Assembly: GCF_000429165.1 (NCBI RefSeq)
Contig: NZ_AUBI01000004.1
Location: forward strand, 62,001-126,000
DNA: 64,000 bases
Reading direction: 5' to 3'
Origin: Acetobacter nitrogenifigens DSM 23921 = NBRC 105050
GTDB taxonomy: Bacteria > Pseudomonadota > Alphaproteobacteria > Acetobacterales > Acetobacteraceae
Below the pieces are notes generated by a model. It saw only the letters and a program-made list of their open reading frames with translations. It searched no databases and was not told the DNA's origin. Position 1 is the stretch's first letter; each line of letters starts with the position of its first letter. A program made the translations under genes and the position numbers. Of the stretch, positions 3,094-61,999 are shown one piece after another.

Positions 3094-4278
3094 TCACTCG
3101 CCCATCAGTTGCTGGGACTCTTCGGGCGAGAGCTTGCCTGTCACAGGGTGCCCGAGCACGGCTTGCAGCCGCTTGATCGCAGCGTGCGTCGCAGCGCTGT
3201 CGTAACCGGTCACCTGACCGGAATAGAAGCCTTTGGCGAGCAGCGCCAATTGCGCATTACGCACAGCCGGATCCGTTTTCGGCGCGACACGCTTTGGCGG
3301 CGGAGCTGCTGGCGCGGCGGCGACGGAAGGTGCGCTTGCTGCAGAATTCTCTGATGCAGACGACGGCTTTTCTTCTGTAGCCACGGGGGCAGCGGCAGGC
3401 GGTGGCGCCACAACCGCGGGCTTCGGCTCGCTCGCGGCAGCGACGGGCGTCGGAATTGCGGGGGGCGGAGCTGCGGGCGCCGGCGTGACGACAGGCGTTG
3501 CCGGCTTAACGGGAGCCGGGGTGGCGCCTGACGGCGCGACCTGCGGAGATGTCGCGGCGCTCTGCGGAGTAATCGTTGCGGCGGCAGGCGCGCCAGCAAG
3601 AGCCCCACCTGTCGTGGGGCCGCCAGACGCAGGGGCTGCGGCGACCGGAAGGAAAACACCCGGGAAGAAAGCGTCGGAGCCCCGCAGCGCCGTGGTGATC
3701 AGGGTATCTATGACGCTGGCGCCGTTGGCGTCTTCGTCAACGCCTCCCAGCTTCCGCCCCCCGATCGCAGGATCAGAGCGCCACTGGGCGACGGCATTGC
3801 CCAGCGGGGGGTCAGCCGACAGGGGATGCAGGTCCAGAATGACGCCGCCGTTCGGCTGGACGATTCTAGAAAACGCCGTAGCGCTCATTGCGCCGCGCGA
3901 CAGGTCTTCCGTCGCGATCGGCGTTCCACTCGGGAGCAGGAACAGGCGACCGCCGCGGACGGCCCCGTATCCACAAACCACCAGCAGTTGCGGCGTGCGG
4001 CTCGCATCGAGAGACGCGGCCATCATCGCTGCGCGGACCCCGTTCGCATCGGGCGATTCAAGAAGGCGACTCGGCACCCCGGCAGCCTTTAAGCTTGCCT
4101 GCAGCAATGGCATTTTCGCAGCGCAGCCGCTGAGCTTCGGCAGGGTTTCAACAGTAGGCAGGTCGATCAGAGTGGCGGAGACGGGCTCGGCGTAAGCGGA
4201 ACCTCCCAAAGCCGCACCCAGCAGAAGCGCTACAAACGACGCCCGGCGAGGAAGGCGCGAAAGGGGACGAAACATCAT
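3094..4278 (-). CDS. Periplasmic peptidoglycan-binding protein with degenerate caspase-like domain
   Basis: The protein is about 394 residues from the ATG at 4278. A GTG 12 codons upstream is possible, but GGAGG lies 11 bases before this ATG. A signal peptide ends at GGSAYA. Residues about 25-200 look like a worn caspase/C14 fold. LLVVCGYGAVRGGRLFLLPSG resembles the His-Gly strand and LLP turn, and GGVILDLHPL sits where the catalytic Asp-x-Cys strand would be, but neither the His nor the Cys is in place. A Pro/Ala-rich linker of about 130 residues follows. The last 50 residues are a PG_binding_1 domain (LLAKGFYSGQVTGYDSAATH). It probably anchors to the cell wall near the T6SS. The caspase link is an inference; the signal peptide and PG-binding domain are well supported. 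Confidence 0.65.
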   Translation of the reverse strand: MMFRPLSRLPRRASFVALLLGAALGGSAYAEPVSATLIDLPTVETLPKLSGCAAKMPLLQASLKAAGVPSRLLESPDANGVRAAMMAASLDASRTPQLLVVCGYGAVRGGRLFLLPSGTPIATEDLSRGAMSATAFSRIVQPNGGVILDLHPLSADPPLGNAVAQWRSDPAIGGRKLGGVDEDANGASVIDTLITTALRGSDAFFPGVFLPVAAAPASGGPTTGGALAGAPAAATITPQSAATSPQVAPSGATPAPVKPATPVVTPAPAAPPPAIPTPVAAASEPKPAVVAPPPAAAPVATEEKPSSASENSAASAPSVAAAPAAPPPKRVAPKTDPAVRNAQLALLAKGFYSGQVTGYDSAATHAAIKRLQAVLGHPVTGKLSPEESQQLMGE

Positions 4279-47348: not shown

Positions 47349-48161
47349 TTATCCTTCCGTAATCAAATCTTTGTCGTTTGTAAGATGTGGCGCGGGATTC
47401 CTCCCGGCCAGAAACCGAAGACCGTTAATGGTGAGTTCAGGATCGATGTGTTCAAACACACTCGTTCCCTCCGAGAAGAGCGGAGCCAGACCGCCGGTCG
47501 CGAGCACCTTCATCGGCGCCCCGAATTCCTGCCTGATCCTCTCGACGATCCCCTCGACCAGCCCGATATACCCCCAGAAAACGCCCGACCGCATGGCCGA
47601 GTTCGTATCACGTCCTATGACAAGCCCGCCCGCCGGACGCCCGACGCCGATGCGCGGCAGACGGGCCGCCGCCTTGTGCAGCGCTTCGACCGACAGATTA
47701 ATCCCCGGCGCGATCACCCCGCCGCAATACGCCCCGTCCACATCCACCACGTCGAATGTCGTCGCCGTGCCGAAATCGATGACGATCAACGGACCGCCGT
47801 AAATCCTGTGCGCCGCCAATCCGTTGAGGAGTCGGTCGACGCCGACTTCCCCCGGATTATCGAGCGCAATACGAAACCCCCAATCCAGACGAGAAGACGC
47901 GATCAGCGGCTCGGTCTGGAAATACTGCCTGCACAACAGACGCAGGTGATAGAGCGCCGCCGGAACGACGGTGCCAATCACCGCCTGACTGACGTCATGT
48001 ACTGACAGTCCGGCGGCCTGCAGCAGGGTCATCAGCCAAACGGCGTATTCGTCCGACGTGCGTTGCGGCTGCATCGAAATGCGCCAGCTTCCGCGCCATG
48101 TGGCGCTGTCATGCACCGCGAAGACGACGTTGGTGTTGCCAGCGTCAACGACCAGAAGCAT
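47349..48161 (-). CDS. coaX: Type III pantothenate kinase
   Basis: A 270-residue CoaX that begins [18 protein letters not shown], with the acidic/GNT ATP-binding motif. [17 protein letters not shown] and [14 protein letters not shown] are typical of the family. It phosphorylates pantothenate, the first step of coenzyme A synthesis, and needs a monovalent cation. It overlaps the end of birA by 17 bp. Confidence 0.95.
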
Positions 48162-48966
48162 TTTGCGCTTCCATTTTTATTAACGCCGCATCGCCGTACA
48201 AAATTTCGCCGGTGACTATGCGCTTCAACTCCGGACCACAGCGCAGAAGAAGCTCTCCGCCTTCGTCGATCCCCTCGAATTCGCCTTCAACATAGGTTTT
48301 TCCCCCGCTGACCACAAGGGGCGCGCCCCGAGGCGGCCCTCGCTCCAGCCAGGCCTGCCTGATCGGGGCGAAACCGTCGCGTTCCCACACCGCGCGCCAA
48401 CGCGTCAGGGCAGACAGCACCCGTCGCGCCACGGTCGTCGCCTCCGCCGCAGGATCGTATTGCGCGAGGCACGCCAGCGTGCGGCCTTCCACCTCCGGCG
48501 CGCGCCGGATATTGGCGCCGAAACCGATCACGACCCATCCGCCTTCGCCGCCGCTGGCTTCGACCAGAATGCCTGCCAGCTTGTGTCCATCCAGCAGGAT
48601 GTCGTTCGGCCATTTGACGCGCAGACGCGGCGTCAGCACGCCATCGGCCAGCGCGTCGTAATACGCCAGCGCGCTGATGAACGACCATGGCGCGCTGACC
48701 GAAGGGTCATTCTTTTCAGGCCTCATCAACACGGAGAGCGCAAGGCTGTCGCCGGGATCGGCCCACGCGCGCCCCCGCGTGCCACGGCCTTTGGTCTGGC
48801 GGCGCGCCAGTAGCGCGAGCCCCTCCGCCTCTCCGAGATCCGCGCGCTCTATGCAGACGTCGGACGTCGAGGACAACTCGTCATGCAACTCGAGCCGCCA
48901 ACCGGAGACGTCCTCCCGGACGAACTCAGCCGACAAGAGCTTTCGCCGCTGCTCCGGCCGCTTCAC
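48145..48966 (-). CDS. birA: Biotin-protein ligase, class I (no DNA-binding domain)
   Basis: A 273-residue BirA catalytic protein with biotin-adenylate loop [30 protein letters not shown] and the C-terminal SH3-like domain. There is no helix-turn-helix, so it only biotinylates carriers and is not a repressor. The ATG overlaps the nuoN end by 41 bp; an in-frame TTG ten codons later is an alternative. It follows the complex I genes directly. Confidence 0.9.
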
Positions 48967-50350
48967 TCACCGGACCGAGCGCCAGAAGGAAAAGCACCGT
49001 CGCGAGCCCCATGGCGGCGGACACGAACGCGATGGACGGCGCAGGCTTGTCGAACGGCGCAGCCGATGCATCAAAATAGACCACCTTCACCACGCGCAGG
49101 TAATAGAAAGCGCCGATCACCGCAGACAGCGCGCCGACAGCGACCAGCCCGTAAAGGCCCGCGTTCCAGGCTGCGCCAAACACCATGAACTTGCCGAAGA
49201 ACCCGGCCAGCGGCGGCACGCCGATCATGCTGAACATGCAGATCGCCATCACCATGGCCATCGCCGGGTTGGTACGGCCGAGCCCGGCAAGATCGGCGAT
49301 CGTCGTCACCTCACGCCCACGACGGCGCATGGCCGAGATGACGCCGAACACGCCGACATTCATCACCAGATACGTCGTCAGATAGACCAGCGTCCCGCGC
49401 GTCCCCACCGGGGTCGCCGCCGCAAGGCCCATCATCGCGTATCCCATATGACCGATCGACGAATACGCCATCAGACGCTTGATATCGCGCTGCGGGATCG
49501 CCGCCAGCGCGCCAAACAGCATCGATAGCGCCGAAATCGCCTCGATCAGAAGCTGCCAGCGCGGCGACATCGCGCCAAACGGCCCCATCATCACCCGCAG
49601 GATCAGTGCGAACGCGGCGAATTTCGGCGCGCCCGCCATGAACGCCGTCACAGGAGTCGGCGAACCCTGATAGACGTCGGGCGTCCACATATGGAACGGC
49701 ACGGCCGACAGTTTGAACGCCAGACCGACGACGATGAACACGACGCCGATGACCAGCCCCACCGGCAGGGCGCCAGCGCCGTTAATTTCAACGGCGATCG
49801 GCGCAAACTCCATCGTCCCCGCGAAGCCGTAGGCGAGCGACGCGCCGTACAGCAGAAGCCCGGACGCCAGAGACCCGAGGATGAAGTATTTCAGCCCGGC
49901 CTCCGCCGCCTCTACCCGATCCCGTTCAATGGCGCAGAGGATGTAGATCGACAGCGAAGACAGTTCGAGCCCGACGAACAGCGTCATCAGGTTCGCCGAC
50001 GACGCCATGATCATCGCGCCAAGCGTGGAAAACAGCATCAGGATCGGCGTTTCGAACGGCAGGGCGTTCTTGCCGTCAGAATACCCGATCGACAACGTGA
50101 TCGAGGCGACGCCGCCCGCAATCACCAGCAGCTTGATGAAGCGCGCAAAGGCGTCCACGACGAAAACATCGCCGTAGCCGACGCCGCTGGAAGACGTCGC
50201 CACCAGAAACCCGGAGACGATCATCGCCGCAACGCTCAACGTGGCGCTGGGGAGGAACGCCTCATCCTTGCGCATCAGGACGCCCGCGGCGAGGATCACG
50301 AGACCACTGACCGCCAGCACGATCTCCGGCAGGGCAAGTGTCCAGTTCAT
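48926..50350 (-). CDS. nuoN: NADH-quinone oxidoreductase subunit N
   Basis: A 474-residue antiporter-like membrane subunit. It begins MNWTLALPEIVLAVSGLVIL and has 14 hydrophobic segments. Conserved charged sites include GLELSSLSIYILCA (Glu), GLAFKLSAVPFHMWTPDVY (Lys) and KRLMAYSSIGHMGY. GGAG sits eight bases before the ATG. It forms one of the proton channels of complex I. It is normally preceded by nuoM, which is missing here. Confidence 0.95.
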   Translation of the reverse strand: MNWTLALPEIVLAVSGLVILAAGVLMRKDEAFLPSATLSVAAMIVSGFLVATSSSGVGYGDVFVVDAFARFIKLLVIAGGVASITLSIGYSDGKNALPFETPILMLFSTLGAMIMASSANLMTLFVGLELSSLSIYILCAIERDRVEAAEAGLKYFILGSLASGLLLYGASLAYGFAGTMEFAPIAVEINGAGALPVGLVIGVVFIVVGLAFKLSAVPFHMWTPDVYQGSPTPVTAFMAGAPKFAAFALILRVMMGPFGAMSPRWQLLIEAISALSMLFGALAAIPQRDIKRLMAYSSIGHMGYAMMGLAAATPVGTRGTLVYLTTYLVMNVGVFGVISAMRRRGREVTTIADLAGLGRTNPAMAMVMAICMFSMIGVPPLAGFFGKFMVFGAAWNAGLYGLVAVGALSAVIGAFYYLRVVKVVYFDASAAPFDKPAPSIAFVSAAMGLATVLFLLALGPVSEAAGAAAKALVG

Positions 50351-50502
50351 CGTCTCAACTCCATCGAACGGACGTGCGGGAGAGGCGCGCGCCCCATCCC
50401 CTCACGCGCCGGAAAAGCACGCAAAAAACACCCGACGGGACGACCGCCGCTCTCGTCGCCCGGCTTACGGCGCGACAGGGCCACAGGCATCGCGTCCGTC
50501 AC
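50347..50502 (-). CDS. 51-codon ORF in the place of nuoM
   Basis: The nuoL-nuoN gap is spanned by one open frame. It starts with a GTG overlapping the nuoL TGA (GTGA) and ends with a TGA overlapping the nuoN ATG (ATGA). The product, starting MTDAMPVALSRRKPGDE, is Arg-rich and shows no NuoM-like hydrophobic helices. It may be the leftover start of a deleted nuoM joined to the sequence before nuoN, or a chance ORF. Translation is unproven. Confidence 0.25.
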   Translation of the reverse strand: MTDAMPVALSRRKPGDESGGRPVGCFLRAFPAREGMGRAPLPHVRSMELRR

Positions 50503-52439
50503 TGGAAGAACACCACCGTCGTTACGAGCGCCACCAGACCAATCAGCATCGACAGCGCGTAGATCGCGATGGAGCCTGTCTGCGAACGCGTCGCCAGCAC
50601 CGCACCGCCCAGCGTCAGGCGCGCCAGCCCGACCGGCGCTTTCTCGATTACGCCCTCGTCGTTGCGACGCAGCAGGCGGGCGATCGCACGATACGGCCCC
50701 ACGAAGATGCGGTCATACAGCTCGTCGAAATACCACTTGTTCAACAGGAACAGGTACAGCGGTCGGAACGACGAGGCCACAGACGCAGGCAGTTCAGGTT
50801 TGACGATGTAGAAAACATAGGCCGCAGCGATGCCCAGAAGACCAGCGACGCTCGGCAGCAGTGCGATGAACGTGGGGACCTCTTCGATCATGCTCATGAT
50901 CGTGTTGCCCGGAGCGTTGACGATCGCCCCGGCCCAGAACATCGCCTGCTTCGAACCGACATAAAGCGGCGCCAGCACCGCGCCAGCCGCGAGCGCGCCA
51001 ATGGATAGCAGCACGAGCGGCGCGACCATGACCGGCGGGCTTTCATGCGCGCCGTCATGCAGATGCTGGTCGCGTGGTTTCCCGTGGAACACCAGGAAAA
51101 GCAGCCGCCAGCTATAGAACGCCGTGATGAAGGCCGTGACCGTACCCAGAACCCAGCCATACATGCCGACGCTGCTGCCCGACGCCCAGGCCGCGTTCAG
51201 GATCGCGTCCTTGGACCAGTAGCCCGCAAAGGGAAACACGCCGGCGAGTGCGAGGCTACCGATCCACATCACCACATAGGTGACGGGAATTTTCCGCCAC
51301 AGGCCACCCATGCGGAACATGTCCTGCTCGTCGTGAACGGCGTGAATGACCGAACCAGCGCCAAGGAACAGCAGCGCCTTGAAGAAGGCGTGCGTCGTCA
51401 GGTGAAACACACCCGCCTGATACGCGCCGACGCCGATGGCTACGAACATGTAGCCAAGCTGCGAACATGTCGAATAGGCGATGGTTCGCTTGATGTCCGG
51501 CTGCACCATGCCGACCGTCGCGGCGAAGAAACACGTCGTCCCGCCGATCAGGACAATGAACTCCCGCGTGTACGGCGTGAACTCGATCAGCGGCGACATG
51601 CGCGCCATCAGGAACACGCCCGCCGTGACCATGGTGGCCGCGTGAATGAGCGCGGAAACCGGCGTCGGACCTTCCATCGCATCCGGCAGCCATGTGTGCA
51701 GGAACAACTGCGCCGACTTGCCCATCGCGCCGACGAACAGCAGCGTCGCAATCACCTCAAGCAGCGAATGCGGACTGCCGAACAGCATGTAGGCATTGCG
51801 CGCCTGATCCGGGACCAGCGAGAAGATGTTGTCGTACTGAACGGTCCCGAAGGTGACGAACAGCAGACCGATGCCGACGATGAAGAACAGGTCAGCGATG
51901 CGATTCACCACGAAGGCTTTTATCGCTGCAGCATTCGCGCTCGGCTTCTGGAACCAGTACCCAATCAGCAGGTAGCTCGCGAGGCCGACGCCTTCCCAGC
52001 CAAAGAAGAGCTGGATCAGGTCATTGGACGACACCAGCATGAGCATGGCGAACGTGAACAGCGACAGATACGCGAAGAAACGATAGCGCGGCATCGAGTC
52101 ATGAGACATGTACCCGACGCTGTAGATGTGGACGAGCAGGGAGACCGTCAGCACCATCGCCGTCATCGTCGCCGACAGCGTATCGAAACGCAGCGCCCAC
52201 GCGGCATGGAACGACCCGGCGTCGACCCAGTGCGCCAGCAGCGCGACGCCCGGCATCGCGCCGGACGTCATGCCGCCGATCAGCGCGCCATAGCTGCACA
52301 GCGCCGCCACGACCATGAACAGGATCGAGACGAACTGCGCCACGCCGTCGCCAAGACGCCGTCCGAAGAGCCCGGAGATCGCGGCGCCGCCCAGCGGGGC
52401 AAGCACAGCAATCGCGAAAAGGATCAATGCCGCCTGCAT
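50499..52439 (-). CDS. nuoL: NADH-quinone oxidoreductase subunit L
   Basis: A 646-residue NuoL of full length. Motifs are DLIQLFFGWEGVGLASYLLIG, GKSAQLFLHTWLPDAMEGPT and the following SALIHAATMVTAGVFL. The C-terminal lateral helix region and final membrane segment are present. It is the distal proton-pumping subunit. In assembled complex I it contacts NuoM, whose gene is absent between this gene and nuoN. Confidence 0.96.
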   Translation of the reverse strand: MQAALILFAIAVLAPLGGAAISGLFGRRLGDGVAQFVSILFMVVAALCSYGALIGGMTSGAMPGVALLAHWVDAGSFHAAWALRFDTLSATMTAMVLTVSLLVHIYSVGYMSHDSMPRYRFFAYLSLFTFAMLMLVSSNDLIQLFFGWEGVGLASYLLIGYWFQKPSANAAAIKAFVVNRIADLFFIVGIGLLFVTFGTVQYDNIFSLVPDQARNAYMLFGSPHSLLEVIATLLFVGAMGKSAQLFLHTWLPDAMEGPTPVSALIHAATMVTAGVFLMARMSPLIEFTPYTREFIVLIGGTTCFFAATVGMVQPDIKRTIAYSTCSQLGYMFVAIGVGAYQAGVFHLTTHAFFKALLFLGAGSVIHAVHDEQDMFRMGGLWRKIPVTYVVMWIGSLALAGVFPFAGYWSKDAILNAAWASGSSVGMYGWVLGTVTAFITAFYSWRLLFLVFHGKPRDQHLHDGAHESPPVMVAPLVLLSIGALAAGAVLAPLYVGSKQAMFWAGAIVNAPGNTIMSMIEEVPTFIALLPSVAGLLGIAAAYVFYIVKPELPASVASSFRPLYLFLLNKWYFDELYDRIFVGPYRAIARLLRRNDEGVIEKAPVGLARLTLGGAVLATRSQTGSIAIYALSMLIGLVALVTTVVFFQ

Positions 52440-52445
52440 CGCCGG

Positions 52446-52769
52446 TCAGCCCTTCATCAACGCCACGTCCTCGACCTGGATCGAGCCGCGGTTGCGGAAA
52501 TAGACGGTGAGGATGGCAAGGCCGATGGCCGCCTCCGCCGCAGCGATGGTCAGCACAAAGACCGTCAGCACCTGCCCGGACAGATCGCCCAACGCCGCAG
52601 AAAATGCGACGAGGTTGATGTTCGCAGCCAGCAGGATCAGTTCCATCGACATCATGATGATGATGATGTTCTTCCGGTTCAGGAAAATTCCGAACACGCC
52701 GAGAACCAGGAGCGCCGCTCCGACCGTAAGAAAAGGCCCCAGACCGATCTGAGCGAAAGCGTCGTTCAT
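52446..52769 (-). CDS. nuoK: NADH-quinone oxidoreductase subunit K
   Basis: A 107-residue three-helix membrane protein. It carries the conserved glutamates in [17 protein letters not shown] and [19 protein letters not shown]. It links proton movement between the quinone module and the antiporter subunits. Its ATG overlaps the nuoJ stop by four bases. Confidence 0.95.
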
Positions 52770-53509
52770 GGCGCGTCTCCGTCGACCTTGCGGACCTCTT
52801 CGCGGGGAGGTTCCGGCGCGGCGGGCACGCCGTAGGAACCCGGAACCGCCGTGTCGTAATACCCCTTCGCCGGACGCAGGAACCCGCCATTGGCGTCGAT
52901 CCCGAAGCCCAGCGGCAGGGTCAGCATCTCCAGCGTGTCCGCGCGCATGCGCTCGTGCTGCTTGCCGATCACCTGACGGCGACCCGTCGGCTTTTCACGC
53001 AGCGTCAGCGTGATCGCGCCGATCATCGCGACCAGCAGCACGAGGCCGCAGGCCTGAAACAGCAGAATGTAATGAGTGTAGAGCAGCGTCCCGAGCGCCG
53101 CCGTGTTGGTCATCGGACCACCCGGCTGGCCAAGGCCGCCCGTAATCGGCTCCGGCATGACCGGCGAACTGGCCCAGTGCGCCGCCGCCATCGCCAACTC
53201 GGCGAACAGGACGCCGCCAACGGCTGCGCCCAGCGGCGCGTAGCGCTGCAGCCCCTCGCGCATTCTCGCAAAGTCGATGTCGAGCATCATGACGACGAAC
53301 AGGAACAGAACCGCGACCGCGCCGACATAGACGATGACCAGAATCATCGCCAGGAACTCGGCCCCCGCCAGCAGGAACAGCCCCGCCGCATTGAAGAAGC
53401 CGAGGATGAGGAACAGCACGGAATGGACCGGGTTCTTCGCGAAGATCACCATCGCGGACGATGCGATCAGCACCGCAGCGAAGACGTAGAAGACAAGCTG
53501 GATCATCAT
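52766..53509 (-). CDS. nuoJ: NADH-quinone oxidoreductase subunit J
   Basis: A 247-residue membrane subunit. It shows the pi-bulge helix region [20 protein letters not shown] and five hydrophobic segments, then a soluble C-terminal tail of about 80 residues rich in Pro and charged residues. That tail makes it longer than E. coli NuoJ but is common in alphaproteobacteria. Confidence 0.94.
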
Positions 53510-53533: not shown

Positions 53534-54022
53534 TCAGCGATACGGCGCATCGAGTTCGAGCCTCCGCGCCAGAACGCTCTCCCATCTGTCGCCGTTGGCG
53601 AGCAGCTTGTTCTTGTCGTACATCAGTTCTTCACGGGTCTCGGTCGCGAACTCGTAGTTCGGGCCCTCGACGATCGCGTCCACCGGGCAGGCTTCCTCGC
53701 ACAGACCACAATAGATGCACTTCGTCATGTCGATGTCGTAGCGCGTCGTCCGGCGCGAACCGTCGTCGCGCGCTTCAGACTCGATCGTAATCGCCTCCGC
53801 CGGACACGCAGCTTCGCACAGCTTGCACGCGATGCAGCGTTCCTCGCCGTTCGGATAGCGACGCAACGCATGCTCGCCCCGGAAGCGCGGCGACAGCGGC
53901 CCCTTTTCATAGGGGTAGTTGATCGTGGCCTTCGGCTTGAACATCGTCTTGAACGTCGCGGTCATGCCGGCGACGATCTCGGTCAGCAGAAACGCCTTGA
54001 GGCTGCGGTCGAGGCCGGCCAT
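53534..54022 (-). CDS. nuoI: NADH-quinone oxidoreductase subunit I
   Basis: About 162 residues from the ATG at 54022, one base overlapping the nuoH stop. A longer ORF starting at 54085 lies inside nuoH and is rejected. Two ferredoxin-type [4Fe-4S] motifs are intact: [12 protein letters not shown] and [12 protein letters not shown]. It carries clusters N6a and N6b towards the quinone site. Confidence 0.96.
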
Positions 54023-55044
54023 CAGCTTACTCCCTGAGGCAGATTGCCCGTTGCGAGCAGGAACCCGGCGGTGGCGATCATCCACAGCAGCGAGAACGGC
54101 AGGAACACCTTCCAGCCCAGCCGCATGAGTTGATCGTAACGATAGCGGGGGAACGTCGCGCGCACCCAGATGAACACGAAGAGGCAGAACAGGATCTTGG
54201 CGATCAGCCAGATCGGACCCGGAATCCAGGTCAGCGGCGCGATCCCCAGCGGCGGCAGCCAGCCACCGAGGAAGAGAATGCTCACCATCCCCGACATCAG
54301 GATCATGTTCGCGTATTCGCCGAGAAAGAACAGGCCGAAGGACAGCGACGAGTATTCGACGAAGAACCCGGCCACCAGTTCGGACTCGCCTTCCGGAAGA
54401 TCGAACGGCGCGCGGTTAGTCTCGGCGAGGGCCGAGATGAAAAAGATGATGAACATCGGGAACATCGGCACGCAGAACCATACGTGTCGTTGCGCCAGGA
54501 TGATGTCGTTCAGGTTCAGACTACCCACGGCCAGAAGCACCGACACGATCACCAGACCGATCGACACCTCATACGAAACCATCTGCGCCGCAGAGCGAAG
54601 TCCACCGAGGAATGCGTATTTCGAGTTCGACGCCCAGCCCGCGATCAGGATGCCGTAAACGCCCAGCGACGAAATCGCGAGCAGATACAGGATGCCGACA
54701 TTGATGTTGGCGACCGCCAGACCATCTCCCGTCGGGATTACCGCCCATGCCAGCATAGCGAGGGAGAACGTCAGGAACGGGGCCAGAAGGAACAGGAAAC
54801 GGTTCGCCCCGCTTGGGATGATCGTCTCCTTGGTCATCATCTTGATGGCGTCGGCGAAGGCCTGCAACACGCCGAAAAGACCGTTCACGTTCGGTCCGCG
54901 CCGCATCTGCATCGCGGCCATGACCTTGCGCTCCATGAGCGTCAGATAGGCGACGGCGATCAGAAGCGGCACCAGAATCGCCAGAGCCTCGAGCACCAGC
55001 AGGATGACGTGGCCGGTCGTCGTATGGAAAAAGAACTGTTCCAC
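54022..55044 (-). CDS. nuoH: NADH-quinone oxidoreductase subunit H
   Basis: About 340 residues from a GTG at 55044, four bases after the nuoG stop, with GGAG seven bases upstream; a start 12 codons earlier would overlap nuoG. Eight membrane segments are evident. Conserved sites include [20 protein letters not shown] and [20 protein letters not shown]. It forms the quinone-binding chamber at the membrane. Confidence 0.95.
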
Positions 55045-55048
55045 GTCG

Positions 55049-57088
55049 CTACTCCGCCGCCACAGCCGCGTGCGGAGCATGAACGCTGGCGCATTCCTGC
55101 ATCGTCGCGCTCGCCCGGCAAATCGGGTTCGTCAGGTAATAGCTGGCGCCGGAAGACGCGAACGGCTTCGAAAGCACGCTATCGGATAGCGCTTCCGCCG
55201 CCGAACGGCGCGCGGTCACATGCCGCGCCCCGACCTGAAGCCGCTCGCGCAGCGCCTCGATCGTGTCGTAGGGCAGCGTATGCCCCAGCACGTCGGACAC
55301 CGCGCGCAGGATGCGCCAGTCCTCGCGCGCCTCGCCCGGCGGGAACACGGCCTGAAACCCGCGCTGCACGCGGCCTTCCGTGTTCACCCAGGTTCCCTGC
55401 TTTTCGGTGTACGCAGCCCCCGGAAGGATCACATCCGCGCGGGCTGCGCCCGCGTCGCCATGATGCCCCTGATAGATCACGAAGGTGTCCGGCCCGATCC
55501 CGTGCACCGGAAATTCATCCGCGCCGAGCAGCCACAGCACGTCGACACCGCCGCTGAGCATGCCGCGCACGCTGCGTCCGCCCTCGGCCGGAAGGAAGTC
55601 GAGATCCAGAGCCGCCACACGTGAAGCAGCCGTGTGCAGGACGTTCAGGCCGGACCACTCATCCGTCACCGCGCCCACAGTTTCCGCCAGTAGCGCGCAG
55701 GCCTCGAGCACCACCGGGCTGTCGTCACGCGTCAGCGCGCCCTGCCCGACGATGATCATCGGGCGCTTCGCCGCCTTCAGCTTTTCGAGGAACGGGTTTC
55801 CGTCCGCCATCAGATCGGCCAGCGCCGAAGCGCCCGCACCCAGGGATTCGTATGCCCATGTCGGGTCGGAGCCCATGTCGCCGATCACGCCAATCGGAAG
55901 ACCGCCACGGCCCGCTTCGAGATATCTTTTACGGATGCGCGCGTTCAGGACCGGCGCATCGTGACGAGGGTTCGCCCCGATCACCAGCAACGCGTCGGCC
56001 TCATCGATTCCGGCGATACCAGATGAGAATGTGTAGTTCGCGCGGTCGGACACGTCGTAATGCGCGCCGTCCTGACGGCAATCGAGATTGGGCGACCCCA
56101 TAGAGATCATGAGGTCGCGCAACGCCATCATGCTCTCGGCGTCGCACAGATCGCCGACAATGGCGCCGATGCGCGAACCGGGAACGCCCTCGAGGCGACG
56201 GGCGATGGCGACGAACGCGTCCTGCCACGATACGGCCTGAAGCTTGCCGTGGACCTTCAACCAGGGGCGATCCAGACGGCGACGCAGCAGACCATCTATG
56301 GCGAAGCGGCCTTTATCGGACAGCCATTCCTCGTTCACCTCGTCGTTGACGCGCGGAACGATGCGCTTCACCTCGCCGCCACGCGCCTGAATCTGGATGT
56401 TGGTCCCGAGCGCGTCCATCACGTCGATGGCGTCGGTCTTCTTCAACTCCCACGGGCGTTGCTGGAACGCGCCGGGCTTGGAGGTCAGGGCGCCGACCGG
56501 GCAGATGTCGATCAGGTTGCCAGAAAGCTCCGACGTCAGAGCCTTCTCGACATAGGTCGTGATCTCCATGTTCTCGCCACGCGACACGGCGCCAAGCTCC
56601 GGGGTTCCGGCCACTTCGGCGCAGAACCGGACGCAGCGCGTGCACTGGATGCAGCGCGTCATGACGGTCTTGACCAGCGGCCCGAGATTCTTGTCCGTCA
56701 CGGCCCTCTTCGGCTCGTCATACCGCGACACGCCGCTGCCGTAACCGTAAGCCTGATCCTGCAGATCACACTCGCCGCCCTGATCGCAGATCGGGCAGTC
56801 CAGAGGATGGTTGATCAGCAGGAACTCCATGACGGAGCGCCGCGCCTTGCGGACGACTTCGGTGTCCGTCTTGATTTCCATGCCTTCCGCAACGGGAAAA
56901 CCGCACGACGCCACCGGCTTGGGCGCGCGCACGACCTCGACAAGACACATGCGGCAGTTGCCCGCGACCGACAGTCGTTCGTGATAGCAGAAGCGCGGAA
57001 TTTCCTTCCCCGCGGCCTCGCAGGCCTGCAGCGCGGATGAGCCCGCAGGCACATCGACCGGCGTTCCGTCGACGATAACCCTCACCAT
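55049..57088 (-). CDS. nuoG: NADH-quinone oxidoreductase subunit G
   Basis: A 679-residue iron-sulphur subunit. [2Fe-2S] ligands lie in [17 protein letters not shown], and the His-Cys cluster in [16 protein letters not shown]. The [4Fe-4S] site is [11 protein letters not shown], with a later CP in [10 protein letters not shown]. The molybdopterin-like C-terminal domain follows without known catalytic function. It carries electrons from NuoEF to NuoI. Confidence 0.96.
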
Positions 57089-57093
57089 TCGCC

Positions 57094-58428
57094 TTACTCC
57101 GCCGCGAGGGTCGCGAGGGTCGCGGGCGACGGCGCATCAATCCGTCCCGCGCCGCCATGCAGCCGCTTGTAGTTGTGAATCCGCTCTTCCATCAGCGGCC
57201 GGAAATGCCGGATCAACCCCTGAATCGGCCACGCGGCCGCATCGCCCAGCGCGCAGATCGTGTGTCCCTCGACCTGACGCGTAACCTGCTCCAGCATGTC
57301 GATTTCTTCGATCTCCGCGCGGCCTTCGACCATGCGGTTCATCACGCGCATCATCCAGCCGGTGCCTTCGCGGCACGGCGTGCACTGGCCGCAACTTTCA
57401 TGCTTGAAGAACTGCGAGAAGCGCGCGATCGCCTTGATGATGTCCGTGGACTTGTCCATCACGATCATGCACGCGGTACCGAGGCCAGAGCGTTCGGCGC
57501 GCAGGCTGTCGAAATCCATCAGCACTGTCTCGCAGACCGATTTCGGCAGCAGCGGCACCGAACATCCGCCCGGAATGACGGCCAGCAGGTTGTCCCACCC
57601 GCCGCGAACGCCGCCGCCATGCTTCTCGATGATCTCGCGCAGCGGAACGCCCAGTTCCTCTTCGAACACACAGGGCGTGTTCACGTGGCCGGAAATCGCC
57701 ATCAGTTTGGTGCCGCAATTGTTCGGGCGTCCCAGTCCTGCGAACCATGCAGCCCCGCGCCGCAGGATGGTGGACGCGACCGAGATGCTCTCGACATTGT
57801 TCACTGTGGTCGGGCAGCCGTACAGACCTGCTCCCGCCGGGAACGGCGGCTTCATGCGCGGCTGGCCCTTCTTGCCTTCAAGGCTCTCCAGCAGCGCCGT
57901 CTCTTCGCCGCAGATATAAGCGCCCGCGCCTCGATGGATGTAGAAGTCGAAATCCCAGCCGGACCCGGCGGCGTTCGGGCCGAGCAGCCCCGCATCATAC
58001 GCCTCGTCGATCGCGATCTGGAGATGCCTGGCTTCGTTGAAGAATTCGCCACGGATATAGATATACGCCGCGTGCGCTCCCATCGCGAACGACGCGAGCA
58101 GGGCGCTCTCGATCAACTTATGCGGTTCATGCCGCAGAATTTCGCGATCCTTGCAGGTGCCGGGCTCGGACTCGTCACCGTTGATGACGAGGTAACGCGG
58201 CACAGGCCCGTCGCCCTTCGGCATGAACGACCATTTGAGGCCCGTCGGGAACCCCGCGCCGCCCCGGCCGCGCAGGTTCGACGCCTTCATCTCGTTGACG
58301 ATGGCGTCGCGGCCACGGGCGATCAGCTCCGCCGTGTCGCTCCAGTCTCCGCGTGCGCGCGCGCCAGCCAACCGCCAGTCGTTCTGGCCGTAGAGGTTGG
58401 TGAAGATCCGATCCTTGTCGCTGAGCAT
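57094..58428 (-). CDS. nuoF: NADH-quinone oxidoreductase subunit F
   Basis: A 444-residue subunit holding FMN and the NADH site. It has the NADH/FMN loop [18 protein letters not shown], the segment [18 protein letters not shown] and the N3 [4Fe-4S] ligands [16 protein letters not shown]. It is the electron entry point of complex I. Confidence 0.96.
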
Positions 58429-58440
58429 CGTGTCTTCTCC

Positions 58441-59070
58441 CTATCCCTGACCCGAGTCGCCGACGTCGAGCAGCACCTTGCGGCCGCCTTCAGGCGCGGA
58501 GTTAAAGCGATCGATCGTAGGCCCATAGGCCGGGCGCTCGCCCTTACGGAGCGCCTCGATCAACTGCTCCGTACGGGGGCCGTCGAGATCCTCATAATAA
58601 TCGTCGTCGACCTGAAGAATCGGCGCGTTCGCGCAGGCGCCAAGGCATTCGACTTCCGTCAGCGTGAACATCCCGTCTTCGCTGGTTTCGCCGAAATGCT
58701 GGATGCCGGTGGCCTTCTTGCAGGCGGCGACCACATCATCCGATCCGCGCAGCCAGCAGGACGTCGTCGTGCACGCCTGCAGGTGGTAACGGCCGATCGG
58801 CTTCGTGTTAAACATCAGATAAAAGGTCGCGACTTCGTAGACGCGGATCGGCGCGACCTCCAGACGGGCGGCGATCACGTCCATGGCCGCGACCGGAACC
58901 CAGGCGCTGCCTGTCAGACGACCCATCTGCCGCTGGGCGACGTAGAGCAGCGGAATCACACCGCTGGCCTTACGCTCCGGCGGATACTTCGCCAGAATCG
59001 TCGCGATTTCCGCTTCGCTGGCCTCGTCGAACGCGAAATGGGCCGGCTGTTCCGGCGTCTGAGCGCTCAT
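58441..59070 (-). CDS. nuoE: NADH-quinone oxidoreductase subunit E
   Basis: A 209-residue thioredoxin-like [2Fe-2S] protein with ligands in [14 protein letters not shown] and [13 protein letters not shown]. It pairs with NuoF in the NADH dehydrogenase module. Its start overlaps the nuoD stop by four bases. Confidence 0.96.
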
Positions 59071-60344
59071 CGATCCACCTCACCGAACACGAGATCGAGC
59101 GAACCGATGATGGCCACCGTATCGGCCAGCATGGAACGCCGTGACAATTCATCTATCGCCTGCAGATGGGAGAACCCGGTCGGACGGATCTTGCAGCGGT
59201 ATGGGCGGTTGCTGCCGTCCGCCACCAGATACACGCCGAACTCGCCCTTCGGCGTTTCGACCGCCGTGTAAGTAGCGCCGGGGGGAACATGGTACCCTTC
59301 CGTGAAGAGCTTGAAGTGATGGATCAGCGCTTCCATCGACTGCTTCATCTCGGCGCGCTTCGGCGGGGAGAATTTCGGATCCTGCACCTTGATGGGGCCG
59401 GGTTTGATCTGCGCCAGCCCCTGCTCGATGATCTTCACGCTCTCACGCATCTCGGCCACGCGGACCAGATACCGATCGTAGCAGTCGCCGTGACGCGCCA
59501 CAGGAATCTCGAACGAGACCTTGTCGTAATTGTCGTAGGGCTGCGAACGGCGCAGATCCCACGGCACGCCGGACCCGCGTAGACACGGGCCGCTGAAGCC
59601 CCAGGCCAGCGCCTGCTCCGTCGTAAACACGCCGATGCCGACGGTACGCTGCTTCCAGATGCGGTTTTCCGTCAGCAGGCTTTCAAGATCATCAATCCAC
59701 GCCGGGAATTCCCTGGCCCAGTTGGCGATACGCTCCTCCAGACCGGCCGGGAGGTCTCGAGCGACGCCGCCGGGGCGGAAGTAATTGGCGTGGAACCGGG
59801 CGCCGGAGGCAGCTTCGTGAAACTCCAGAAGCTTCTCGCGCTCCTCATACCCCCACAGGGCAGGCGTCACCGCGCCGCAGTCCAGCCCCATCGCGGTCAG
59901 GTTGAGAATGTGGTTCAGGATGCGCGTAATTTCCGCGAAGATCACACGAATCCACTTGGCGCGATCTGGCGCCTCGATCCCCAACAGCTTCTCGGTGGCC
60001 AGCGCGAACGCATGCTCCTCGCACATCGGGGAGACGTAGTCGAGGCGATCGAAATACGGCAGCGCCTTCTGATACGTCTTGTATTCGATCAGCTTTTCCG
60101 TGCCGCGGTGCAGCAGGCCAATATGCGGCACAGCGCGGGCGACGACCTCGCCCTCCATCTCCAGCACCAGACGCAAAACGCCGTGCGCAGACGGGTGCTG
60201 CGGTCCGAAATTCAGCGCGTGGCTGTCGATCTCGACCGTGCGCCGTTCAGCCTGCTCGACTGCCTGTTCGGGAAGGAGAGACTCCGGCACGGCCGCTTCG
60301 CCAAGGGCGTGGTCCAACGCTGCCTGCTCGATCGCATTCGTCAT
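59067..60344 (-). CDS. nuoD: NADH-quinone oxidoreductase subunit D
   Basis: A 425-residue 49-kDa-type subunit with the N-terminal motif [19 protein letters not shown] carrying the quinone-site His, and a hydrogenase-like fold through to FGEVDR. About 40 extra residues precede the conserved start. It builds the quinone cavity with NuoB. nuoC and nuoD are separate genes here, not fused as in E. coli. Confidence 0.96.
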
Positions 60345-60354
60345 GACGGCCCCG

Positions 60355-61014
60355 TCAGCTCAGCTTTTTCATGATCTGGCGCAGCTCATGCGCCTTTTCG
60401 TCGCCGGGGAGCGTCAGGACGCCCTCCCACGGCGATACGAAATCGAAGTCGCGGAAATCCTGCGTCAACGACACCGGCTCCCGCACCACCTGCCGCCGCT
60501 CGGGATCGTACCGAACCTCGGTGTAGCCCGTCAGCGGGAAATCCTTGCGCAGCGGATGCCCCTCGAACCCGATATCGGTGAGGATGCGGCGCAGATCCGG
60601 CTGGCCAGAAAACAGCACGCCGAACAGGTCGTAGCACTCGCGCTCCCACCACGTCGCACAGGGCCACAGGCCGTGCACGGAGGGAACGGGCGTCAGTTCG
60701 TCGGTTGTTACGATCACGCGCGCGCGCTGGTTCAGGCTGACCGACAGCAGATTATACACGACGTCGAACCGGTTCTTGCGCGCCGGAAAATCGACGCCGC
60801 ACAGATCCATCATCTGCTCGAACCGGAACTGCGGATCGTCGCGCAGCAGCGTCATCAGCGGGATCAGGACATCCCTGTCGGCGCGCACGACCAGTTCGCC
60901 ACGTTCGACAGCGGCGGACGAAACGCCCGGAAAGGACGAGGACAGGGTGAAAGCCAGCGCTCCGAGCCTGTCGGCGGACGCGGCTCCGGCGAGACGTGCA
61001 GTTTCCTCAGCCAC
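60355..61014 (-). CDS. nuoC: NADH-quinone oxidoreductase subunit C
   Basis: A 219-residue 30-kDa-type subunit. It shows [20 protein letters not shown], the family signature [20 protein letters not shown] and [19 protein letters not shown]. It overlaps the end of nuoB by eight bases. It is part of the peripheral arm connecting module. Confidence 0.95.
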
Positions 61015-61585
61015 GCAGAATGGTCCCCGTGCGACGGATTTTTTTCTGGAGAAGCATGATGCCGTAAATCAGCGCCTCGGCGGTCGGCGGGCAGCCCGGG
61101 ACATAGACATCCACCGGCACGACACGGTCACAGCCACGCACGACGGAATAGGAGTAATGGTAGTATCCGCCGCCATTGGCGCAGGAACCCATCGAGATCA
61201 CCCAGCGCGGTTCAGCCATCTGGTCGTACACCCGGCGCAGCGCCGGGGCCATCTTGTTCGTCAGCGTGCCTGCGACGATCATCACGTCGGATTGACGCGG
61301 CGAACCGCGGGGAATCACCCCCATACGATCGAGATCGTAACGCGGCATATAGGCGTGAATCATCTCGACCGCACAACAGGCGAGACCGAACGACATCGGC
61401 CAGAGACTGCCGGTGCGGCCCCAGTTGACCAGCTTGTCGAGATTCGCGACGACGAACCCCTTCTCGCTGATCTCCCCGGTGACGCCACGCACGATGGCGT
61501 CCTGCTCCGGACCGGGGGGAACCATATCGCGATTCCAGACGATCGTCTCCGATCCGCCGACCGCCTTACCGTCGTTCATGCTCAT
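61007..61585 (-). CDS. nuoB: NADH-quinone oxidoreductase subunit B
   Basis: A 192-residue subunit carrying the N2 [4Fe-4S] cluster. Adjacent cysteines lie in [20 protein letters not shown], with further ligands in [18 protein letters not shown] and [15 protein letters not shown]2 passes electrons to ubiquinone. Confidence 0.96.
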
Positions 61586-61633: not shown

Positions 61634-61999
61634 TCAATCCCAGTCGAGCGCGCCCTTGCGCCATTCGTAAAGAAAACCAATCCCGAGAACGCCGAGGAAC
61701 GCGAGCATCGAGAAGAACCCGAACGCCCCGATACGAGACAAACTGATCGCCCACGGGAACAGGAACGCGACCTCAAGGTCGAAAATGATGAAGAGGATTG
61801 AGACCAGATAAAATCGCACGTCGAAGCGGCGGCGGACGTTGTCGAAGGCGGCGAAACCGCACTCGTAGGCCGACAGTTTCTCGGCGTACGGCTTCTGGTG
61901 CCCCGCAAGCAGCGACCCGCCCAGCATGCCGCCCGAGATGACGACCGCCAGAACGCCGAAAATGAGAACGGGCAGGTAATCGTTTATCACCGAATGCAA
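61634..61999 (-). CDS. nuoA: NADH-quinone oxidoreductase subunit A
   Basis: A 121-residue subunit with three membrane segments and the conserved loop KLSAYECGFAAFDNVRRRFD, followed by FYLVSILFIIFDLEVAFLFP. The start is a TTG at 61999: GGAGG lies six bases before it, whereas the in-frame GTG at 61990 is 15 bases from the same site. A weak start codon at the head of a long operon is worth noting. Confidence 0.93.
   Translation of the reverse strand: MHSVINDYLPVLIFGVLAVVISGGMLGGSLLAGHQKPYAEKLSAYECGFAAFDNVRRRFDVRFYLVSILFIIFDLEVAFLFPWAISLSRIGAFGFFSMLAFLGVLGIGFLYEWRKGALDWD

Follow-up and report, generated by a model that had tools for sequence, protein, structure and literature searches.

The window analysed here, a 64,000-nucleotide stretch of the genome of Acetobacter nitrogenifigens DSM 23921 (contig NZ_AUBI01000004.1), carries a complex I operon of 13 genes from which nuoM is missing, and a full-length nuoM was identified on another contig of the same genome. 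We consider it very likely that nuoM has been relocated and that complex I is complete, an ordinary enzyme of 14 subunits. On the minus strand of the window, from about 62.0 to 48.9 kb, the genes nuoA-B-C-D-E-F-G-H-I-J-K-L-N were found in the usual order, followed by birA. An earlier sequence-only reading of the window had described nuoA to nuoL and then nuoN without nuoM, with 148 bp between the last two genes, and the open reading frames and family profiles bore this out. nuoL (50499–52439, minus strand) encodes 646 amino acids and nuoN (48926–50350, minus strand), directly after it, encodes 474 amino acids. Both are full length, with 772.1 bits against a cut-off of 407.5 for TIGR01974 (NuoL) and 461.1 bits against a cut-off of 332.6 for TIGR01770 (NuoN). 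The 148-bp junction between them (50351–50498) is the site of nuoM in relatives. No recognisable remnant of nuoM was found in this junction, where 91 NuoM queries gave short, chance-like matches (best E 0.019 among the matches listed).

The search of the genome for a NuoM homologue showed that the earlier suggestion of a nuoM lying elsewhere was right. The gene is located at G000:C2:133809-135326, G000 being this genome, and encodes a full-length protein of 505 amino acids. It matched TIGR01972 (NDH_I_M) at G000:C2:133824-135263 with 550.6 bits against a cut-off of 263.8, over profile positions 1-484 of 486 and with no internal stop, and among solved structures the best relative of the protein was 8qby_M, a complex I subunit M, with an alignment spanning residues 4-486. 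The gene does not lie between nuoL and nuoN, a position that is usual for nuoM and not defining. Only three Proton_antipo_M genes were found in G000, namely nuoL, nuoN and the distant nuoM, and the latter together with the 13 genes of the operon makes up a complete set of 14 complex I subunit genes. nuoM is preceded by mlaA, mlaC and a glutathione S-transferase (GST) gene and followed by ung, with a strong terminator-like hairpin between nuoM and ung (L037 10880-10904). Complex I subunits assemble through protein contacts, not gene order, so a NuoM made at a second chromosomal locus could be inserted between NuoL and NuoN as usual.

The separation of nuoM is not confined to this strain. Among the matches listed, nuoM and nuoN were separated in all 36 other Acetobacter genomes, on different contigs in 30 of them and on the same contig at a distance of 0.87–1.99 Mb in six (in one of the 36, G010, nuoN is a fragment). 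A scan of named genomes with NuoM gave 40 matches of at least 67% identity, all from Acetobacter, the closest of which, at 99%, were A. sacchari and Acetobacter sp. DsW_063, in a scan that may not cover records of this genome itself; these 40 records overlap with the 36 genomes, and the two counts are not independent. Neither nuoL nor nuoN was beside nuoM in any of the 40 records (flanks of up to 10 kb, some ended by contig ends). Beyond Acetobacter, the scan returned one uncultured member of the Acetobacteraceae at 63% and then five bacteria of other groups at 42–48%, all five with nuoL-nuoM-nuoN together.

We also sampled 299 genomes of the family, which we take to be the Acetobacteraceae since Acetobacter belongs to it. 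Among the matches listed, 40 genomes (8 Acetobacter and 32 from ten further genera) carried a NuoM at least 59% identical, and the next highest identity was 56%. In the 35 of these 40 displaced-type genomes that were inspected, mostly with 1.5-kb flanks, neither nuoL nor nuoN was found beside nuoM (G192, G202, G242, G313 and G342 were outside the inspection). nuoN itself was located in six displaced genera other than Acetobacter, and for genera g84 and g97 the result is the absence of nuoL and nuoN from 1.5-kb flanks. All 30 loci taken from other genera of the family had an intact nuoL-nuoM-nuoN, as did 18 of 19 loci from other families of the class (24 genomes sampled, of which 19 gave loci); the nineteenth held nuoL-nuoM, nuoN being absent from its short flank. 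In the sampled alphaproteobacteria outside the displaced clade, the three genes stay together.

This comparison with the operons of relatives, proposed with the sequence-only reading, also decided whether a stretch of 1.5 kb between nuoL and nuoN had been lost in the assembly, as that reading had allowed. Nothing beyond the missing gene itself speaks for such an error, while the L-N junction measures 46–87 bp in 17 other Acetobacter genomes and 13–34 bp in the six other displaced genera, including assemblies of few contigs (G032, G012 and G013). Because nuoM is separate in all 36 relatives of the genus and the L-N junctions are short elsewhere, an assembly drop-out was excluded, and we regard its probability as negligible. 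One Acetobacter genome, G124, was considered as a loss of complex I. It has an intact nuoM by mutL, while NuoL and NuoN gave no match there and Complex1_49kDa matched only weakly. A match to birA was absent there as well. Biotin ligase is essential, and birA adjoins nuoN in several relatives, among others in G033 and G023, so the lack of NuoL and NuoN in G124 was most likely caused by an assembly gap and was not counted as a loss.

The enzyme had also been suspected to be altered or dead. Residues E144, K223, K254 and E396 were kept in 24 of 24 displaced NuoM sequences and in 37 of 37 of a wider set. By motif and a constant offset, they match E144, K234, K265 and E407, given as pumping residues of E. 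coli NuoM in the accessible part of one paper (PMC9271201). The ratio of nonsynonymous to synonymous substitution rates (dN/dS) was 0.03–0.04 in seven close NuoM pairs, two of which are orphan copies of genus g124 described below, 0.03 in one NuoL pair and 0.02–0.05 in three NuoN pairs. In the available portion of a proteomic study of A. pasteurianus (PMC10742644), the values for four comparisons were 0.62, 0.33, 2.16 and 1.78 for NuoM and 0.93, 0.31, 2.22 and 2.12 for NuoN, and NuoM falls and rises together with NuoB-I and NuoN. The protein numbers in the same portion place NuoM (1610) far from NuoB-N (3342–3354). Judging from the genes and these relatives, complex I is probably assembled and working.

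An incomplete complex, that is, an enzyme working without NuoM or a dead one, with the separate NuoM serving something else, would fit a nuoM that is far from the operon, diverged and changed from histidine to tyrosine in its channel. It does not fit the conservation of all four key residues, the low dN/dS of the closely related pairs compared for NuoL, NuoM and NuoN or, as far as the available proteomic text goes, the NuoM protein tracking the other subunits in A. pasteurianus. Moreover, no second antiporter-type complex that NuoM could serve was seen, as only the three Proton_antipo_M genes were found in G000. We therefore consider an incomplete complex very improbable. With NuoL, NuoM and NuoN intact and the NuoM protein measured in A. 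pasteurianus, a dead enzyme is unlikely, whereas the suspicion of an altered one survives in a mild form because NuoM is unusually diverged.

Several points weigh against a relocated nuoM in a complete complex. NuoM reached 583 bits with the narrower NCBIfam equivalog model NF004499 and thus fails its cut-off of 585 by 2 bits. The NuoM pair of this genome and A. musti, which is more distant than the pairs above, gave a dN/dS of 0.13. The proteomic values come from A. pasteurianus, a species other than that of the window. A consensus scan found no sigma-70-like site around nuoM, although the consensus says little for Acetobacter. Finally, for G. diazotrophicus one paper includes nuoM in a nuoA-N set in the part available (PMC9368920); this set may be a second operon, because the species has two nuo operons according to the accessible text of another study (PMC4596401).

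The divergence of the displaced NuoM was then quantified with trees. FastTree was used for the clade, mlaC-group and NuoL+N placements, and quick trees, which are less sure with long rows, were used for the orphan placement, the clade tests and rpoB. The trees do not include the partial loci L070 and L081, and since the flanks of most loci are short, NuoL was represented mostly by its C-terminal part. The displaced set formed one clade in both the NuoL+N and the NuoM trees. On fixed topologies, for NuoL+N that of an IQ-TREE tree, and scaled to the rest of the family, the stem of the displaced NuoM was 3.3–4.0 times that of NuoL and 4.6–7.7 times that of NuoN, and the NuoM rate within the displaced clade was 1.3–1.5 times faster. 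Among 162 NuoM positions near-invariant in 38 other sequences, 15 carried another, fixed residue in 22 or more of the 24 displaced rows; the same count was 2 of 154 for the C-terminal part of NuoL and 4 of 111 for NuoN. Eleven of the 15 changed NuoM positions still hold in at least 34 rows of the wider set of 37.

At the channel histidine site (position 237 of this NuoM, 248 by offset), tyrosine was found in 37 of 37 displaced NuoM sequences and histidine in 46 of 47 operon NuoM sequences. The sole operon NuoM without histidine at this site is L095 (G083), at the same time the operon relative that stands closest in the tree. The accessible part of one paper (PMC13324432) places H248 in the putative proton input channel of E. 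coli NuoM and lists Y231 in the NuoN channel. Because a tyrosine is listed in the NuoN channel, we infer by analogy that a tyrosine in the NuoM channel need not abolish function.

Two addresses of the moved gene were identified. The common one, ileS-mutL-nuoM with parE nearby, was found in 28 of the 40 named Acetobacter records, and in the other displaced genera, too, most of the loci inspected have mutL next to nuoM, with parE not seen nearby in genus g66 and in G157. The other address, mlaA-mlaC-nuoM, was found in 11 of the 40 records and in one more that is cut upstream. Its members are the subgroup of the window's strain (A. sacchari, A. musti, A. conturbans, A. estunensis, A. oeni, A. sicerae, A. 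fallax and one metagenome-assembled genome (MAG)) and Acetobacter sp. AN02 with one MAG. We take the mutL address to be the older one, since it is common to several genera, and the mlaC address to be a later move. The NuoM tree kept the two mlaC groups apart, though at weak support, so the move to mlaC may have occurred more than once. nuoM would have left the operon a single time, in the common ancestor of an Acetobacteraceae clade that includes Acetobacter, most inspected members of which have it beside mutL, and a second move would have brought it to the mlaC side in the part of Acetobacter that includes this genome.

The three genomes of genus g124 (2.69–2.74 Mb, single contigs) bear on the origin of the moved gene, since each contains two NuoM. 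One nuoM copy stands without nuoL or nuoN in 3 of 3 genomes (20-kb stretches), and the other, as seen in G171, is part of an intact L-M-N operon. The orphan NuoM, not the operon copy, joined the displaced NuoM with a support of 100. It has 10 of the 15 displaced-type changes, including the tyrosine, and its dN/dS of 0.03 indicates strong constraint. A duplication within g124 was rejected (p 7e-6), the group having been named after the tree was seen. We tentatively favour the view, with somewhat less than even confidence, that a diverged orphan NuoM paralogue predates the displaced clade, was present alongside the operon copy, as it still is in g124, and then replaced it. The displaced gene would thus descend from an old nuoM duplicate, and the whole clade would then have a complex I whose central pump channel is altered, among other things by the change from histidine to tyrosine, and whose NuoM is encoded and possibly regulated apart.

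Other observations weigh against such a takeover. The displaced set was separated from the g124 orphan with a support of only 87 in the quick tree and 0.935 in the FastTree tree. A clade of the displaced set, the orphan and the g124 operon copy was rejected (p 0.008). In the rpoB tree the neighbour of the displaced clade was G103/G109 (support 96) and not g124, although holding g124 with the displaced clade was not rejected for rpoB (p 0.56, with a slightly higher likelihood). The p-values of the three NuoM clade tests (7e-6, 0.008 and, for all orphans of the family, 0.0002) are weakened because the clades were named after seeing a tree. In view of the support of 87, the p of 0.008 and the rpoB placement, a transfer of the orphan into g124 or a long-branch pull is possible.

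If g124 acquired its orphan by horizontal transfer from an early representative of the displaced clade, the orphan would say nothing about how nuoM left the operon. Such a transfer concerns the origin only, and it agrees with the g124 operon genes falling outside the displaced clade plus L095/L097 in the NuoM and NuoL+N trees (with weak support in NuoL+N), with the rejected joining of that clade for NuoM and with the free rpoB tree. It is opposed by the unrejected rpoB grouping and by the orphan branching below the displaced NuoM, though at the support values given, and we regard it as rather unlikely. A transfer would be compatible with a simple translocation, in which the operon nuoM was moved a single time with no duplicate in between, and selection that was relaxed or altered after the move accounts for the long stem. 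This simpler history, again a matter of origin only, is possible but less likely than not. The displaced NuoM forms one clade, the L-N junctions in the six other displaced genera are short, and L095 and L097 are the nearest operon relatives of the displaced clade in the NuoM and NuoL+N trees alike. However, the g124 orphan joins the displaced clade while the examined g124 operon holds its own nuoM, and duplication within g124 was rejected, with the reservation on naming the group. If the takeover by an old duplicate is true, this clade would be a natural case of a duplicated subunit replacing the original in an obligate multi-subunit pump, and with both copies still present in g124, subunit replacement would be testable.

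A single origin of all orphan nuoM in the family was tried and rejected, as the g28 and g36 orphans fall elsewhere (p 0.0002). In these genera, a second nuoM outside the operon (L105 8054-9571 and L278-L281; genera g36 and g28) is of separate origin, and the operon copy is kept. In all four rows, the orphan NuoM of g36 and g28 have asparagine at the site of the central pumping lysine and tyrosine at that of the channel histidine. The operon NuoM of L097 (G113) has asparagine at the central-lysine position and leucine at the position that equals E. coli K312 by offset, and might possibly be a non-pumping NuoM inside an intact L-M-N operon.

The remaining genes of the operon are all on the minus strand. 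They are nuoK (52446–52769), nuoJ (52766–53509), nuoI (53534–54085), nuoH (54022–55080), nuoG (55049–57088), nuoF (57094–58428), nuoE (58441–59070), nuoD (59067–60344), nuoC (60355–61014), which is separate from nuoD, nuoB (61007–61585) and nuoA (61634–61999; Pfam PF00507). The overlaps of nuoI with nuoH and of nuoH with nuoG come with mechanical ORF (open reading frame) starts. The next gene past nuoN is birA, of the biotin/lipoate ligase family (48145–48966, minus strand), which adjoins nuoN in relatives too. Among RNA families, one tRNA was found near the operon. A weak second Complex1_49kDa match was present elsewhere in the genome (G000:C1:321008-321472, in a frame of 728 amino acids), with similar weak matches in 4 of 6 other genomes searched.

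A rearranged nuo operon of E. coli was reportedly the subject of work by Oppermann in 2022. For acetic acid bacteria, the split itself is known in passing. In the available text, the genome paper of A. pasteurianus SKU1108 lists nuoM apart from the operon (PMC5158111), and complex I of A. pasteurianus 386B is given as APA386B_556-567 and APA386B_2247 (PMC3751514), the last of which would be nuoM. The accessible parts of both give locus tags only, with no comment on the extent or history of the split. An Asaia study compared the nuo operons of the group by nuoHIJKLN, with nuoM left out (PMC4596401, as far as available), and the word nuoM occurs zero times in the available text of an Acetobacteraceae phylogeny that discusses complex I (PMC10715153). 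No description of a clade-wide nuoM move or of the second copy was found in searches of open-licence PMC papers, against which the extent of the split, the second move of the gene and a possible takeover seem to be new. One survey, in its accessible part, scores complex I as complete by gene clustering via intergenic distance (PMC12361115); cluster-based surveys would call the complex I of the displaced clade partial.

A second complex I was present in at least nine Acetobacter genomes (G003, G007, G008, G014, G017, G024, G026, G027 and G034), and none was found in the genome of the window. A second complex I has been described for Asaia and G. diazotrophicus in the available part of the Asaia study (PMC4596401), and that of the Acetobacter genomes is probably of the same type. 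It differs from the system reported here in having nuoL, nuoM and nuoN together, as seen in the four loci inspected. A. pasteurianus shares the split with the strain of the window, but its nuoM lies by mutL (L128), whereas that of the window's genome lies by mlaC. Compared with the bacterial complex I encoded by a nuoA-N operon, the system of A. nitrogenifigens is the same in having all 14 genes in the genome, 13 of them in the usual order, and a NuoM that aligns to 8qby_M, and it differs in that nuoM lies outside the operon and NuoM is more diverged than NuoL and NuoN.

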